A stretch of 32,309 nt of DNA from Sulfobacillus benefaciens (GTDB lineage: Bacteria; Bacillota; Sulfobacillia; Sulfobacillales; Sulfobacillaceae), in NCBI GenBank assembly GCA_003023725.1, contig PXYT01000042.1, forward strand, positions 1 to 32,309, given 5' to 3'. Within the stretch, counting starts at the first letter, position 1; each line of letters begins with the position of its first letter. Shown here in pieces: positions 2,968 through 11,835 of this stretch. The position numbers and the translations under genes are program-made. The notes beneath the pieces are model-generated. The model had not been told where the DNA came from. It made no database searches and worked only from the letters and a program-made list of their open reading frames with translations.

Positions 2968-4224
2968 TCACATTTCAGAAACTCGTGAAAGTTTCTGTGG
3001 TCCATGGGTTTCCCGCATGCGAACGACAAGAATCCCGGCCATGACCCAAACGACGCCCACCACCACGAGAATCGTGCTAAATGATCCCATAAGGGACAGC
3101 AAGACACCTACGACGACGCCGCCAACGAAATAGCCTCCGTCCCTCCACAGACGATAAACACCCAATATACTCCCGCGGCGGTCGGGGGGCGCGACATCAC
3201 TGACAGTGGAATTCAAGTTGGGATACAAAAGGGCCATACCGCCTCCTGCAACCACAGCCATAACAATCCACGGCCATAACCCTCGTACCCAAAGCAGCCC
3301 CATGAAACCCGCCCCTAATAAGACGAACCCCGTAACAATGGGAATCTTGCGCCCAATTCGGTCCGAGAGAGAGCCCGTTCCGAACTGCCCGAAGCCCCAG
3401 GCTCCGGTATAGCTGCCGCTGACCCACGCGATGTCCATCACTGGCACGTGGCGGGCCGCCAAATACAGGGGAAGGACACCCCAAGCCACGGTGTCGGCCA
3501 ATTTGTTCACCAGACCGGCCCAAGAGGCGGCCGACAAGGTCGGTTCCTGAAAACTGGTGTAAACAAATGACCGCCACGCCGAATGTCTGCGAACCTCGGC
3601 GTCGTGGACCCGGTCAGTAGAGAGCTGGGTTTCCGTGGCAACCCAGGCGCGAGTATCCCGAATGAATAAAAGGCTCGTGATAAATCCCACCCCCACCACG
3701 ACTGCCGCAAATGTGAAGGCTCCCGTTGAACCCACAAAACCTGTAAGGTATCCGCTCAACCAGGTGGCCATGGTGACACCCAAATAGCCGGTGGCCTCAT
3801 TGATACCCATGGCCAGTCCGCGTTGGTGCGGCCCCACCAAATCCAATTGGGCACTAATGGTCATGGTCCAGGCAAAGGCCTGGTTAGCTCCCAGGAAAAC
3901 GTTGGCAACAACAACCGCCCACCAGGCATGGACTGCCAACAAAAGAGCAATCATGGGAATGCCAAAAATCCATCCCCAAATGAGCACCCGCCGACGGCCC
4001 ACCCGATCCGACCAGCGGCCCGCCACCAAATTCAATGGAGCCTTGGCCAATCCAAACGAAGCAATAAACGCCAGCGTACTCAATGCTCCGACATGGTACA
4101 CCTGATGCCCTAACAAAGGAACAATCGTCCGTTCCGTCCCCACGGTGAGTCCTACCAAAATTGTATTGGCCACCAGCCACAAAAATTGTCCCCGGTTCGG
4201 CCCAATCCCATGTTGTTTAGGCAT
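2968..4224 (-). CDS. Major facilitator superfamily (MFS) exporter, 12 transmembrane segments
   Basis: A 418-residue inner-membrane secondary transporter with about 12 hydrophobic segments. The MFS motif A appears after TM2 as GRWSDRVGRRRVLIWG and again in the second half as GSLSDRIGRKIPIV, showing the two homologous six-helix halves. A basic/acidic linker (TRAWVATETQLSTDRVHDAE) lies between them. The length is usual for single-substrate drug or metabolite exporters. The ATG at 4224 follows GGTGATG. It is divergent from the ArsR gene starting at 4556, with a 330-base shared region containing a perfect palindrome, so control by that repressor is plausible. The substrate is unknown. It resembles arsenite/drug-efflux MFS proteins only at the superfamily level. 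Confidence 0.88.
   Translation of the reverse strand: MPKQHGIGPNRGQFLWLVANTILVGLTVGTERTIVPLLGHQVYHVGALSTLAFIASFGLAKAPLNLVAGRWSDRVGRRRVLIWGWIFGIPMIALLLAVHAWWAVVVANVFLGANQAFAWTMTISAQLDLVGPHQRGLAMGINEATGYLGVTMATWLSGYLTGFVGSTGAFTFAAVVVGVGFITSLLFIRDTRAWVATETQLSTDRVHDAEVRRHSAWRSFVYTSFQEPTLSAASWAGLVNKLADTVAWGVLPLYLAARHVPVMDIAWVSGSYTGAWGFGQFGTGSLSDRIGRKIPIVTGFVLLGAGFMGLLWVRGLWPWIVMAVVAGGGMALLYPNLNSTVSDVAPPDRRGSILGVYRLWRDGGYFVGGVVVGVLLSLMGSFSTILVVVGVVWVMAGILVVRMRETHGPQKLSRVSEM
2976..2997 (-). terminator. Hairpin at the 3' end of the MFS gene
   Basis: CAGAAACT (2976-2983) and AGTTTCTG (2990-2997) form a perfect 8-bp stem with a 6-base loop. It lies within the last codons of the MFS gene. No T-run follows, so termination is only possible. 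Confidence 0.35.
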
Positions 4225-4555: not shown

Positions 4556-4966
4556 ATGACGGGAGGAGGGGTCGCGATTAATATCGACGCAATTTTCAAG
4601 GCTTTGGCCGACCCCTTGAGGCGGCGGATTCTCGAAGTGCTCAGTGATCCTCAGTATTTTTGCGGGAATAGGGAGGACCCTATACACGGCATTTGCGTTC
4701 AGGATATCTCACGTTATTTGAAATTACCGCAATCCACAGTTTCCCGACATTTGGCGATTTTGGCTCAGGCCGGATTAATCTCCCAGTCCCGCCATCGTAC
4801 CTGGCACTATTACTACATTAATACAGAGGCCCTCTCCGGGGCCCTTGAATGGCTTCAGAGCGTGATGCCCCCTGGGAGCCATCTCGCTACCACGACCCTC
4901 CCGCAACATTTTGCTGACGAATGGCCGCAAAATCCGGGGGATGGGGCGGGAGAGTCGTCAAGATAA
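4556..4966 (+). CDS. ArsR/SmtB-family transcriptional repressor
   Basis: A 136-residue winged-helix repressor: IFKALADPLRRRILEVLSDP opens the fold, SRYLKLPQSTVSRHLAILAQ is the recognition helix, and RHRTWHYYYI is the wing. Cys36 and Cys47, in an insert between helices 2 and 3 (YFCGNREDPIHGICVQD), could form a metal or thiol sensing site, but the classical ELCVCDL box is absent. The ATG at 4556 has only a weak ribosome site. A GGAGGAGGGG run just inside the gene would better serve a start near AINIDAIF (an ATT at 4574), so the N-terminus is uncertain. The last roughly 27 codons overlap the 3' end of the opposite sulfur-dioxygenase reading frame, so the tail after about residue 110 may be accidental. 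Likely controls itself and the divergent MFS gene. Confidence 0.85.
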   Translation: MTGGGVAINIDAIFKALADPLRRRILEVLSDPQYFCGNREDPIHGICVQDISRYLKLPQSTVSRHLAILAQAGLISQSRHRTWHYYYINTEALSGALEWLQSVMPPGSHLATTTLPQHFADEWPQNPGDGAGESSR

Positions 4967-5063
4967 ATGACCGAAATGTCTCTTGAGACTGCGCACGGCA
5001 GGCCATATTATACCGGCGCTCAAACCCAATGGTGGAAACGACCTTTCCACTCAAATCTCGGCC
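4887..5063 (-). pseudogene. In-frame continuation of the sulfur dioxygenase beyond TGA
   Basis: After the TGA at 5064-5066 the same minus frame stays open for 59 codons to a TAG at 4887-4889. It keeps family sequence throughout: GRDLSGKVVSTIGFERRYN is the conserved SGK-x-x-STIGFERR-x-N block of MBL sulfur dioxygenase-like proteins, and LPPHPPDFAAIRQQN matches their LPP-x-P-x-DF-x-x-IR-x-x-N end. The stop therefore interrupts the gene rather than ending it. The segment is either an untranslated remnant or is reached by UGA decoding (see the hairpin at 5032-5050). Its last 80 bases overlap the ArsR gene tail to tail. Confidence 0.75.
5032..5050 (-). promoter_or_regulatory. SECIS-like hairpin downstream of the in-frame TGA
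   Basis: On the minus strand GTGGAAA (5050-5044) pairs perfectly with TTTCCAC (5038-5032) around the loop GGTCG. The loop starts 20 nt after the TGA. Bacterial SECIS elements put a short stem-loop with G (often GGUC) at the start of the loop some 16-37 nt after UGA, so geometry and loop fit. The stem also encodes the conserved SGKxxST residues, so it could be coincidence. Confidence 0.35.
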
Positions 5064-5621
5064 TCATGTGGATCCGGCAAAGGCGCCCGGATAAATCTCA
5101 ACGTAATCCGGTAGGGTCAAGAGGCGTTTAAAGAGGCTCGTATAAAGCATCGAAGCACCCTCTTCGGCAACAAGGTCGGGGCGGCCCGCATCTCCTATGA
5201 GCAGTGTATGGCCGGTCAGAACACACCACGGCTCCCCTCCCCGTCTTTTGTCCGTTATCAGCACACTCACGTGTTCCGGAGTATGCCCAGGAGTGTGCCA
5301 GAATTCCATGACCACATTGCCTAAAGTCAGCTGGCTTCCATCCTCAACGGGCAAAAACGGTGTTGCCAGGGGACTCGAATCATGCATAACTACCGCCACT
5401 CCTGTTGCTTCCGCCAGACGGCGCGCCCCCGAAAGGTGATCCGCATGAAGATGCGTGTCGATCACATAGCGCAATGATAATCCGTGCTTTTGCAGAGTCT
5501 CCAAGTAAGGTGTCGAGTCGGGAAGAGGATCCACAACGGCAGCCAACCCATGGCTGCCGCATCCTAACAGGTAACTGGCAGCTACGACAGGCGAGTCGTG
5601 GAGGAATTGGCGAAAGAACAT
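5064..5621 (-). CDS. Metallo-beta-lactamase fold sulfur (persulfide) dioxygenase-like protein, cut by TGA
   Basis: An MBL-fold protein of the ETHE1/persulfide dioxygenase group, which oxidises glutathione or low-molecular persulfide to sulfite using one Fe(II). The start at 5621 (MFFRQFLHDS) follows GGGAGGA with a 7-base spacer; a longer frame to 5756 has no ribosome site. Visible ligands: H57-x-H59-x-D61-H62 (THLHADH), H113 (TPGHT) and D144 (IGDAGRPDL). The last ligand, the His of the family's YPAHFAGS motif, is Ala here (YPGAFAGST). A G insertion plus an A deletion within the motif would explain it. The next family residue, the Cys of GSxCG, is TGA. The product would be 185 residues, shorter than the usual 230 or more. 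Either a recently inactivated gene or a selenoprotein candidate. Confidence 0.8.
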   Translation of the reverse strand: MFFRQFLHDSPVVAASYLLGCGSHGLAAVVDPLPDSTPYLETLQKHGLSLRYVIDTHLHADHLSGARRLAEATGVAVVMHDSSPLATPFLPVEDGSQLTLGNVVMEFWHTPGHTPEHVSVLITDKRRGGEPWCVLTGHTLLIGDAGRPDLVAEEGASMLYTSLFKRLLTLPDYVEIYPGAFAGST

Positions 5622-8562: not shown

Positions 8563-8940
8563 CTAGATCTTCGGCTCCGAAAAAAACTGTTTCTGGTCCG
8601 CATTGGAGCGGGTCTGGATTATCGAACACGACGCGACTCCGTCAAGATGGTCCTGAAGTACAGCCGATCCCAGTTCAAGCAAAGTCGACACTCGCTCATC
8701 CCCTATCTGGTAATAGACATACCGTCCCTCCGGCTGACTTTGGACCAAACCGCAATTCTTTAAACAAGCTAAATGATTCGAAAGGTGACCCTGGCCAATA
8801 CCCAGACGCTCAACCAGTTCGCCAACATTGAGTCTGCCTTCGGCGCGAAGGCATTCCAGGACTCGTAATCGAATGGGATGGCTTAAAGCCTGCCAAAATG
8901 CGGCCAGCAGTTCGTCACGGTTCTGACCTACAAGACCCAT
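8563..8940 (-). CDS. ArsR/SmtB-family metalloregulator, CmtR-like
   Basis: A 125-residue winged-helix repressor: FWQALSHPIRLRVLECLRAE, then GIGQGHLSNHLACLKNCGLV as recognition helix, and GRYVYYQIG as wing. Cys59 and Cys63 (ACLKNCG) in the recognition helix plus Cys105 in the tail reproduce the Cys57/Cys61/Cys102 sensor of mycobacterial CmtR, which binds Cd/Pb. By analogy it senses a soft thiophilic metal, here most likely Hg(II). The ATG at 8940 follows GAGGGGGG. It lies 195 bases downstream of merA on the same strand, so it is either the last gene of a merA transcript or has its own promoter in the gap. The metal specificity is inference from the neighbour. Confidence 0.9.
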   Translation of the reverse strand: MGLVGQNRDELLAAFWQALSHPIRLRVLECLRAEGRLNVGELVERLGIGQGHLSNHLACLKNCGLVQSQPEGRYVYYQIGDERVSTLLELGSAVLQDHLDGVASCSIIQTRSNADQKQFFSEPKI

Positions 8941-9134: not shown

Positions 9135-11030
9135 TTACCCGGCACAACACGATAACTTACTGACATCCTGATTAAATGTCAGCGCGGCCAGTTTCAGACC
9201 CTCAGCCATGGTGAGATACGGTGCCAGCGTGTCCGTCAAGTCATGAATGGTTAAGCCGAATTTCACCGCCAGTTGGGCTGCATAAATAACCTCCCCCGCG
9301 TTCTCCGAGACAATCTGTACCCCTAGCACACGACCACTGCCTTCATCGGCAACCATTTTAAAGAGACCCTGGGTCTCCCGGTTCACCACGGCTCGCGTCA
9401 CGGCATCCAAAGGCAAAACAGTGGAGATGACCTTCAAGCCCCGCTCTCTGGCCGCTTGTTCCGTGAGACCTACCGACGCAATTGCCGGTTGAGTAAAGAT
9501 CACCATGGGCACCACACTTAAATCAAGAGGCTGAGGGGCAGTTGTCAATCCCAGAGCATTTCTCGCGGCTAGTTTTCCTTCGTAGGCCGCCACATACACG
9601 AACTGCGGCCCCATGGTGACATCACCGGCCGCATAAACGTAAGGATTGGCGGTACCAAGATTTTCATTCACCGCAATCTCGCCTTGGGAACCCCATGCGA
9701 CACCAGCCGCTTGAAGATTCAAAGAACTGGTGTTGGGAATTCGGCCTGCGGCCACAAGCAGTGCATCACCGGTCACAACCCGTTGTGTTCCTTGATTTTG
9801 AAGATACACGGCCTTTTCCCCGCCCACAGCCTCCACGTGTTGATAGCTGGCGCCGGTGATGACCTCAATCCCTGCTTCTTCCAGCATCCGTCGGATTACT
9901 TTTCGCACCTCGGAGTCAAAAAAGGGCATGATCTCGGTTCCGCGCTGGATGAGCGTGACTTCTGAGCCCCAGTGCCTGAATAGCTGCCCAAGTTCGAGAC
10001 CAATGTACCCGGAACCGATAACTACCAGATGATCAGGTCTCTTCGTCAAGCTCAAGGCAGAGGTGCTGGTTAAATAATCGACGCTTTCTAGTCCAGAAAT
10101 ATGTGGAATACGAGGTGCGGAACCCGTGGCAATCACATAATGCCCAGCCTCCCAAATACGTTCGCCTACTTGCACCCGCTTGTTGTCCACAAACCGGGCT
10201 TCTCCGGTAAGAAGGTCGATATCATATTCCGCCATTAAATCCTCATATTTCACTTTGCGCAGACGAGCTACCAGCCCATCCTTTTCTTCTACCAGGGTTT
10301 CCAAATCAGGCGCCTCTGCCTTCGTGTGCAGCCCGCGAACAGGATTGGACTGGGCCCAATGATGCAAATCGCTAGCTCGCAGCAGGGCCTTGGACGGCAC
10401 GCATCCCACATTGACACACGTTCCCCCTATCACTCCCCGCTCTGCCATTGCCACGCGGGCTTTGGCGCGCGCAGCTTCAATGGCTGCTGCGAAGGCGGCG
10501 CTCCCGGAGCCAATAATCAGGAGATCGTATTCTTTCCGGGAACTGAAATGGGTGAGGGAGCCCGATGCCGCCGGTGCTTTCCGAACCGCCTTGGACGGCT
10601 GGTATCCAGCTTGAATGATCAGATCCCGCGCTGTATCCCACGAAAAATTTTCCGGTACCACAATCGTTGCCAGGCCTCGCTGAAAGTCTGCTTGCACATC
10701 AAGAGCGCCGGCCGTTTTCAACGCCTCGATCACGTGATGCTCGCAGCTTGTGCAAGTCATGCCCTGAATTTCCAGTGTATAGATCGCCGGTTCGGAGGCA
10801 GATTCCGCCAAAATATGCAGATCCAAAGGCTGGTAACCCGCCCGAATCACAGCTTCTCGAGCCTCTTTAGCCGAAAATGTCCTGTCCGCCTGAAATATCG
10901 CCTCATTTCGTTTGAAACTGGCCTCGACGTCAACGGCTCCCACGGATGACAACGCTTGCCTCACATGGTGTTCGCAATCGGAACAGGTCATCCCCTCAAT
11001 TCTCATCCGGTATTTTGTGCTCTGATTCAT
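9135..11030 (-). CDS. merA: Mercuric reductase with two N-terminal heavy-metal-associated domains
   Basis: Reduces Hg(II) to volatile Hg(0) with NADPH in the cytoplasm. The start ATG at 11030 (MNQSTKYRMR) follows GGGAGTGA; product 631 residues. Two HMA domains lie at about 7-70 (GMTCSDCEHH, Cys16/19) and 84-147 (GMTCTSCEHH, Cys93/96). Then come the FAD site GSGSAA near 174, the active-site disulfide GGTCVNVGCVPSK (Cys205/210), a central NAD(P)-binding domain with GSGYIGLELGQ, the second FAD motif YAAGDV and the C-terminal KLSCCAG, whose vicinal cysteines deliver Hg(II) to the partner subunit. All catalytic elements are present. The frame also stays open 119 codons upstream of this start to 11387. 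Probably regulated by the CmtR-like gene downstream, as no MerR is present. Confidence 0.96.
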   Translation of the reverse strand: MNQSTKYRMRIEGMTCSDCEHHVRQALSSVGAVDVEASFKRNEAIFQADRTFSAKEAREAVIRAGYQPLDLHILAESASEPAIYTLEIQGMTCTSCEHHVIEALKTAGALDVQADFQRGLATIVVPENFSWDTARDLIIQAGYQPSKAVRKAPAASGSLTHFSSRKEYDLLIIGSGSAAFAAAIEAARAKARVAMAERGVIGGTCVNVGCVPSKALLRASDLHHWAQSNPVRGLHTKAEAPDLETLVEEKDGLVARLRKVKYEDLMAEYDIDLLTGEARFVDNKRVQVGERIWEAGHYVIATGSAPRIPHISGLESVDYLTSTSALSLTKRPDHLVVIGSGYIGLELGQLFRHWGSEVTLIQRGTEIMPFFDSEVRKVIRRMLEEAGIEVITGASYQHVEAVGGEKAVYLQNQGTQRVVTGDALLVAAGRIPNTSSLNLQAAGVAWGSQGEIAVNENLGTANPYVYAAGDVTMGPQFVYVAAYEGKLAARNALGLTTAPQPLDLSVVPMVIFTQPAIASVGLTEQAARERGLKVISTVLPLDAVTRAVVNRETQGLFKMVADEGSGRVLGVQIVSENAGEVIYAAQLAVKFGLTIHDLTDTLAPYLTMAEGLKLAALTFNQDVSKLSCCAG

Positions 11031-11835
11031 GTTTCTGCTCACTCCCGTCAGTCCCCTTGTCGGCCTCTCATACACAGACTCCATACAGTTCGGACATTTT
11101 TCTACCCCTAAACGCAAACAAATGCTTTTTCCGGCTCCACCAGGGTTCTGGCTGTTCTCCGGGAAGCTACAGTTCCTCCACGGCTCTGATTTCAAAAATT
11201 TGGTGGGAGAAGAGGCCACCAGAATCGGCAGAGTCTCTGGCGACTTCTCTACGTCACTGAACCCTTTCGGAGCCAACTCGTTGCATCTGCTATGCCCCTC
11301 GCCCTGCATTAGTTTGATGGGACTCAACAATATTATAACATTATATTGCAATTTTAGAATATATTTCTCATGCACGACCTTCGCCACCCCGATAAAGTCC
11401 GCGTCACCCTAGCTTCTGCAGTAGCCGAGGAAACGGAGGCACTGTGCCATTGAGCCCTCCCAATTGTTCCATTCCTGGTTCCATTCCTGGTTCAATTCAT
11501 GCACTCAAATTGCCGAAATCACGCACCCTCGAAGACTTGGTAAGCTGGCATTTTACCCCGCTATCGGAAGACAGGGAAGATGCGCATAAGATCTTTGTTA
11601 ACATATTCCATGGTCGTCAAACCAAAATCCTTGACGATCTTCCCATCCTCCATGACATCCCAGTTCCCGGATCGGCCATGGGATTGGCATGAAGAACCCA
11701 TGAAAATCTCTCCGGCAATAGCGGGCAACACATAAACCGCTCACGCTATCCAGAGGCATGAACTAGGTCTAAGGCATCAGATGTTATTGAATTCCTTTCG
11801 CCAAGTGCTGTATTATACTTGTTGAACATTATATT
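11031..11835. other. Long leader/intergenic region between merA and marR
   Basis: About 800 bases. The merA frame runs open to 11387, but its extra residues match nothing I know apart from a CPNC motif just before the merA start. A plus-strand ORF at 11444-11692 has no good ribosome site and contains the direct repeat CCATTCCTGGTT twice near 11468. The AT-rich stretch 11326-11370 is the likely merA promoter zone. Confidence 0.4.
11328..11348. promoter_or_regulatory. AT-rich inverted repeat, candidate ArsR-type operator of merA
   Basis: CAATATTATAACATTATATTG: arms CAATAT and ATATTG pair perfectly, with further matches inside. On the minus strand TATAAT overlaps it and could be a -10. AT-rich interrupted palindromes are typical ArsR/SmtB sites. 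It lies about 300 bases before the merA start, so the leader would be long. Confidence 0.4.

Follow-up and report, generated by a model that had tools for sequence, protein, structure and literature searches.

A putative selenocysteine codon with its own hairpin, conserved in a metallo-beta-lactamase-fold protein of acid-loving sulfur bacteria

Comparison of sequences across an order of bacteria indicates that a selenocysteine (Sec) codon, accompanied by its own hairpin, has almost certainly been kept in a metallo-beta-lactamase (MBL) fold protein throughout a group of acidophilic sulfur bacteria, and that the majority of them would carry a second Sec in the same protein. The gene was found in a stretch of 32,309 nucleotides of Sulfobacillus benefaciens DNA, which is referred to as the window throughout. 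We conclude that this gene very probably encodes a selenoprotein in which UGA at codon 186 is decoded as Sec.

Results

The in-frame TGA and its conservation

The reading frame of the MBL gene begins with an ATG at 5621, preceded by a Shine-Dalgarno-like GGGAGG, runs through 185 codons to a TGA (5066-5064) and continues for 58 further sense codons to a TAG (4889-4887) (Table 1). Frame, TGA and TAG are as the first-pass annotation had described them. That annotation had weighed a UGA decoded as Sec in place of Cys against a pseudogene, and had leaned toward decay. Its placement of a Cys opposite the TGA was borne out, since homologues from Bacillota and Proteobacteria at about 50-57% identity read GSxCGR at this point. 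Pfam assigns the gene product to the metallo-beta-lactamase superfamily. Of the NCBIfam equivalogs shown, none reached its cut-off: TIGR03413 (GloB) scored 81.8 bits against the 200.8 needed, and NF040641 (Blh) scored 44.2 bits against a cut-off of 625.

Table 1. Positions of the MBL gene, its codons of interest, hairpins and neighbours in the window.
Feature	Position	Strand	Remarks
MBL-fold gene	5621-4887	minus	244 residues with UGA186 as putative Sec; terminal stop TAG 4889-4887
In-frame UGA, codon 186	5064..5066	minus	Opposite the Cys of GSxCGR in homologues and Cys201 of CstB
Codon 21, TGC (Cys) in the window	5559..5561	minus	TGA in 15 relatives; opposite Cys20 of CstB
Metal-binding motif H57-x-H59-x-D61-H62 (HxHxDH)	5436..5453	minus	
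H113, second metal-ligand position	5283..5285	minus	
H138	5208..5210	minus	Replaces the iron-ligand Asp of persulfide dioxygenases
SECIS2	5032..5050	minus	Stem GUGGAAA/UUUCCAC, 7 bp, loop GGUCG
Degraded SECIS1 remnant	5521..5541	minus	In the window, where codon 21 is TGC
ArsR/SmtB-type regulator	4556..4966	plus	Convergent, overlaps the 3' end of the MBL gene; like neighbour in relatives
MFS transporter	2968..4224	minus	Conserved neighbour at UGA and Cys loci

Forty-two genomes of the order were surveyed, and genes of this family with in-frame UGA (UGA genes) were found in 16 of them, amounting to 18 distinct genes. Seventeen of these, from 15 genomes, are full length, and all 17 have TGA at codon 186, although this codon is numbered 185 or 187 in some. 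A TGA at codon 21 occurs in 15 UGA genes, comprising 14 full-length genes that also have TGA186 and one that is cut by a contig end. Over the roughly 240 codons of each gene, codons 21 and 186 were the only internal stops, and both are Cys in the Cys homologues. The alignment of relatives proposed by the first-pass annotation returned TGA in the relatives as well, and Cys in further homologues. The two-TGA form is carried by a chromosome assembled as a single contig of 3,472,898 bases (G028), at 193598-194323 on its plus strand, and two metagenome-assembled genomes (MAGs) in a public genome collection have TGA at codon 186, at 86% (a sister MAG) and 71% identity. The window's own assembly holds a paralogue (L002; G000:C130:10471-11199) that is 85% identical and also has TGA at codon 186; because it lies on another contig of a draft of 155 contigs with about 3% estimated contamination, it may stem from a close relative. 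Among 299 genomes drawn across the phylum, one further match was found at E <= 1e-60, in a form without the stop, and relatives with less than 60% identity were found on 111 plasmid records.

In a maximum-likelihood tree, all UGA genes of the order formed one clade (support 100/98), and the TGC21/TGA186 group to which the window belongs was nested within the two-TGA genes. The parsimonious reading of this topology is that both Sec positions would have been gained from Cys in the ancestor of the clade, with one SECIS element each, and that in the window's genus Sec21 would later have returned to Cys while SECIS1 decayed. The dN/dS ratio 3' of UGA186 was about 0.12-0.36 in the pairs tested, which is the mark of purifying selection, and the sequence beyond the stop is therefore taken to be translated and under constraint.

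A separate case was observed in a Chloroflexota MAG, where a PDO-rhodanese fusion (L027:3762-4500) of 45% identity has a TGA at the codon-186 position. It has the usual Asp/His ligands and a 6-bp hairpin of its own, in a register differing from that of SECIS2; the SelB match in its genome was fragmentary (184.5 bits over about 148 positions) and below the cut-off. Because this locus is separate and has both the TGA and its own hairpin, L027 is possibly an independent gain, in which case Sec would have evolved repeatedly at this position.

Hairpins behind the two TGA codons

A perfect 7-bp hairpin with loop GGTCG had been reported to start 20 nt after the TGA. The hairpin is present at 5050-5032, but the distance of 20 nt is that to the loop, whereas the stem begins 13 nt after the TGA. 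In bacterial SECIS elements the apical loop lies about 16-37 nt after the UGA and has a G within its first two bases, and SECIS2, with GGUCG at 20 nt from UGA186, conforms to this rule. However, 4.2% of the TGA triplets in the window are followed by a hairpin of at least 7 bp so placed, which means that a lone hairpin like SECIS2 is not beyond chance. Hairpin strength as sole evidence was dropped for this reason.

Unlike the hairpin alone, the conservation of SECIS2 is beyond chance. The codons AGT GGA AAG GTC GTT TCC are nearly invariant in the 17 UGA genes and unconstrained in Cys homologues. Over SECIS2 (alignment columns +4 to +11 from the UGA) the same-codon rate reached 1.65 times expectation, more than in any other window of the gene, and the second-highest peak, at about 1.5 times expectation, lay over SECIS1 (columns 27-37); the mean of this synonymous-codon identity ratio over the whole gene in the 17 UGA genes was 0.98, with a standard deviation of 0.18. 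In ten Cys homologues there was no such peak at either site. The protein sequence follows the same division, with SGKP in Cys homologues versus SGKV in UGA genes, and the V agrees with GGTC in the loop of the hairpin. In one UGA relative (L110) the loop is ACTCG, which breaks the rule of a G in the first two bases, and the stem is intact.

In the relatives with TGA21, SECIS1 has a stem of up to 8 bp around AGUGG/CCACU and a loop, UGGAU, that lies 25 nt after UGA21; roughly half of the two-TGA genes have a stem of 5 bp, beneath which there is a mismatch. The state of SECIS1 follows codon 21, in that genes with TGA have the hairpin and those with TGC have a degraded one. Pairing was kept in 90% and 96% of cells for the two hairpins, mostly by invariant bases, and covariation adds little: each hairpin has one compensatory pair, and that of SECIS2 is contributed by L027, a distant relative with its hairpin in a different register. 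An Rfam scan of the region gave no match.

Selenocysteine machinery

The search for sel genes suggested by the first-pass annotation was positive throughout. The window's genome encodes SelB (358 bits, over the cut-off), SelA (556 bits) and SelD (358 bits), and ARAGORN detected a tRNA-Sec with the anticodon UCA. The SelD of this genome itself contains a UGA, in the context SG-U-GCK. SelB scored above the curated cut-off in all 16 UGA genomes; under strict filters tRNA-Sec was not detected in two of these (G037 and G039), and SelB was found in both. In G023, which has the Cys/Cys form of the MBL gene, SelB and tRNA-Sec were not detected. Use of Sec has been reported in Sulfobacillus before: every genome in one survey had putative selenocysteine formate dehydrogenases (PMC4378227), and a peroxiredoxin with selenocysteine has also been described (PMC7409299).

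Many genomes of the order also have a second tRNA-Sec-like gene that scores over the Rfam cut-off, with the anticodon GCA (Cys) in a Sec-like long-arm frame (L156, L158-L161 and L163-L165, in G028, G020, G019, G008, G036, G033, G032 and G010). We take this tRNA to resemble the tRNA-ReC of Soll's group.

Alternative readings of the UGA

In our reading, SelB and tRNA-Sec(UCA) would decode UGA186, with SECIS2 as the guiding signal. Alternatively, this UGA could be a true, selected stop, or one read through at a low level, so that the working product has 185 residues, with the remainder as an optional extension. All metal-ligand positions precede residue 186 and a truncated protein could therefore keep its metal site. 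However, the homologues are full length with Cys at 186, a stop at UGA21 in 15 genes would leave 20 residues only, both UGA sites have a conserved hairpin, and the window's genome has the Sec machinery. We regard this alternative as very improbable. A reading of UGA as some other amino acid, by a reassigned code or a suppressor tRNA, has nothing specific in its favour and seems less credible still: UGA is the terminal stop of several UGA genes (L114-L117), which disfavours reassignment, it occurs inside genes of this family only at Cys positions with hairpins, and tRNA-Sec(UCA), SelA, SelB and SelD are all present.

The pseudogene reading, with the TGA as a nonsense mutation and the gene in decay, is hardly tenable. 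This reading drew on the in-frame stop itself and on the argument of the first-pass annotation that a metal-site His had become Ala through two small indels. All close Cys homologues read PGA as well, so that Ala characterizes the subfamily as a whole, and TGA is kept in the 17 full-length genes from 15 genomes, with no further internal stop or frameshift, low dN/dS behind it and very little synonymous variation across the hairpin. A decaying gene had been expected to go with a genome lacking selB and selC or with a strain alone in its changes, but selB and tRNA-Sec are present and the strain is not alone in either TGA or Ala. Least plausible is a sequencing or assembly error at 5064-5066, as might befall a draft assembly, since the same codon is TGA in independent assemblies that include the single-contig chromosome. 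The conservation of TGA in independent genomes rules out both a pseudogene and an error. Of the two explanations first proposed, decoding as Sec is thus strongly supported, by conservation across genomes together with the hairpin, the Sec machinery and purifying selection downstream.

Fold and metal site

An AlphaFold2 model of the protein, built with 33 relatives, had a pLDDT of 93.7. Its best structural matches were 3tp9 (Z 38.0, rmsd 1.1) and 3r2u (Z 35.7), followed by known persulfide dioxygenases (Z scores from VIA). We take 3r2u to be CstB of Staphylococcus aureus, and the MBL protein consists of one domain, akin to the dioxygenase domain of CstB. In the alignment with 3r2u, Sec186 lies opposite Cys201 and codon 21 opposite Cys20, where the CstB residue numbers are those of the 3r2u chain minus a 24-residue tag.

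Persulfide dioxygenases bind iron through two His and one Asp, such as His71, His146 and Asp163 in PaPDO (PMC12856154). The MBL protein departs from this set, in that His57 and His113 are kept and the Asp is replaced by His138, likewise in all close Cys homologues. The His of the YPxH motif is Ala in the MBL protein and in the close Cys homologues. Because the catalytic Asp of persulfide dioxygenases is a His here, dioxygenase activity is doubtful. The name "sulfur dioxygenase" given by the first-pass annotation is therefore apt for the fold, which is closest to persulfide dioxygenases, but less so for the active site, where one of the three iron ligands is replaced.

Gene neighbourhood

Many UGA loci retain the trio of ArsR/SmtB regulator, MBL gene and MFS transporter, and some UGA loci have the regulator fused to a rhodanese. 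With a Cys homologue, the trio occurs on plasmids of Cytobacillus, Acidithiobacillus, Acidiphilium, Methylocystis, Bradyrhizobium and Deinococcus. It often lies beside genes for rhodanese, TusA, DsrE or cysteine desulfurase, or beside metal-resistance genes. The arrangement of ArsR, three-His MBL and MFS genes (L150-L155) is a widespread plasmid module found in several phyla. The window also contains a mercuric-reductase-like gene (9135-11387, minus strand) with two N-terminal repeats that, read by eye, resemble heavy-metal-binding domains, and a second ArsR-type gene (8563-8940) adjoins it.

Discussion

The predicted selenoprotein would add the metallo-beta-lactamase fold to those known among selenoproteins. 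A chain would contain as many as two Sec, which lie far apart in sequence and have separate SECIS elements. Its hosts are acidophilic sulfur bacteria, in which such genes are likely annotated as broken or truncated. A single order offers a natural series of Sec/Sec, Cys/Sec and Cys/Cys forms, in which decay of a SECIS element is tied to the loss of one Sec, and it therefore becomes testable what advantage selenium has over sulfur in the chemistry of persulfides.

By analogy with CstB and from the neighbouring genes, the MBL protein probably handles sulfane sulfur with Sec186. In the mechanism that we propose, Sec186 would pick up the sulfane sulfur of a persulfide as a selenopersulfide or selenenylsulfide and would pass it on, to be oxidized or released, to a non-heme metal with His57, His113 and His138 as its ligands; residue 21 may serve as the resolving partner, the flanking ArsR regulator would sense stress and the MFS transporter would export the product. 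The identity of the metal, the substrate and the redox pairing of residues 21 and 186 are putative, as is persulfide dioxygenase activity, and we consider the scheme as a whole about evenly balanced between right and wrong.

The protein might instead be no oxygenase at all but a metal-binding hydrolase, a sulfurtransferase-like enzyme or a factor in metal- or metalloid-thiolate detoxification with Sec as a soft ligand, any of which is compatible with the decoding of UGA as Sec. The change of the iron-ligand Asp to His and of the YPxH His to Ala point this way, as do the frequent position of the module beside merA, RND, CDF or MerT genes and the mercuric-reductase-like gene in the window. On the other hand, the solved structures nearest to it are those of MBL-rhodanese and persulfide dioxygenase proteins, and the neighbours include rhodanese, TusA, DsrE and cysteine desulfurase. 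We hold a non-oxygenase role to be a serious contender, if somewhat short of an even chance. A further tentative proposal, toward which we are slightly more sceptical, is an enzyme with a three-His site in which Sec21 and Sec186, both catalytic and both with a SECIS of their own, form a diselenide or selenenylsulfide couple beside an oxygen-activating metal, one Sec having returned to Cys in the window's genus.

We found no selenocysteine-containing MBL protein and no selenocysteine-containing persulfide or sulfur dioxygenase in searches of open-access articles, and no MBL-fold or persulfide-dioxygenase-like entry among the 119 prokaryotic families of a 2026 inventory (PMC13188914, Table 1). 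The prokaryotic selenoprotein families collected there share with the present case a UGA, a downstream SECIS, Cys homologues and the Sec machinery, and a few of them have two Sec (PMC13188914).

Among proteins of known structure, CstB (3r2u) and the Alicyclobacillus acidocaldarius protein 3tp9, which belong to the MBL-rhodanese, persulfide dioxygenase group, have the MBL fold in common with the protein described here. In contrast to them, it lacks a rhodanese domain and has a predicted Sec in place of Cys, His138 in place of the ligand Asp and Ala in place of the YPxH His. The ETHE1-type and type II persulfide dioxygenases (4chl, 4ysb, 9g8t) likewise share the fold and the HxHxDH and PGH ligand positions, but their iron site consists of two His and one Asp rather than three His, and the ETHE1 sequences aligned do not have the GSxUGR loop. 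There is also a likeness in active site and setting to the three-His MBL proteins of Cytobacillus plasmid pBO1 (WP_016204420.1) and Acidiphilium (WP_007424875.1), which are about 48-57% identical and agree with the MBL gene in their ligand residues and in their ArsR-MBL-MFS neighbours, whereas their residues opposite 21 and 186 are both Cys and conserved hairpins are absent.
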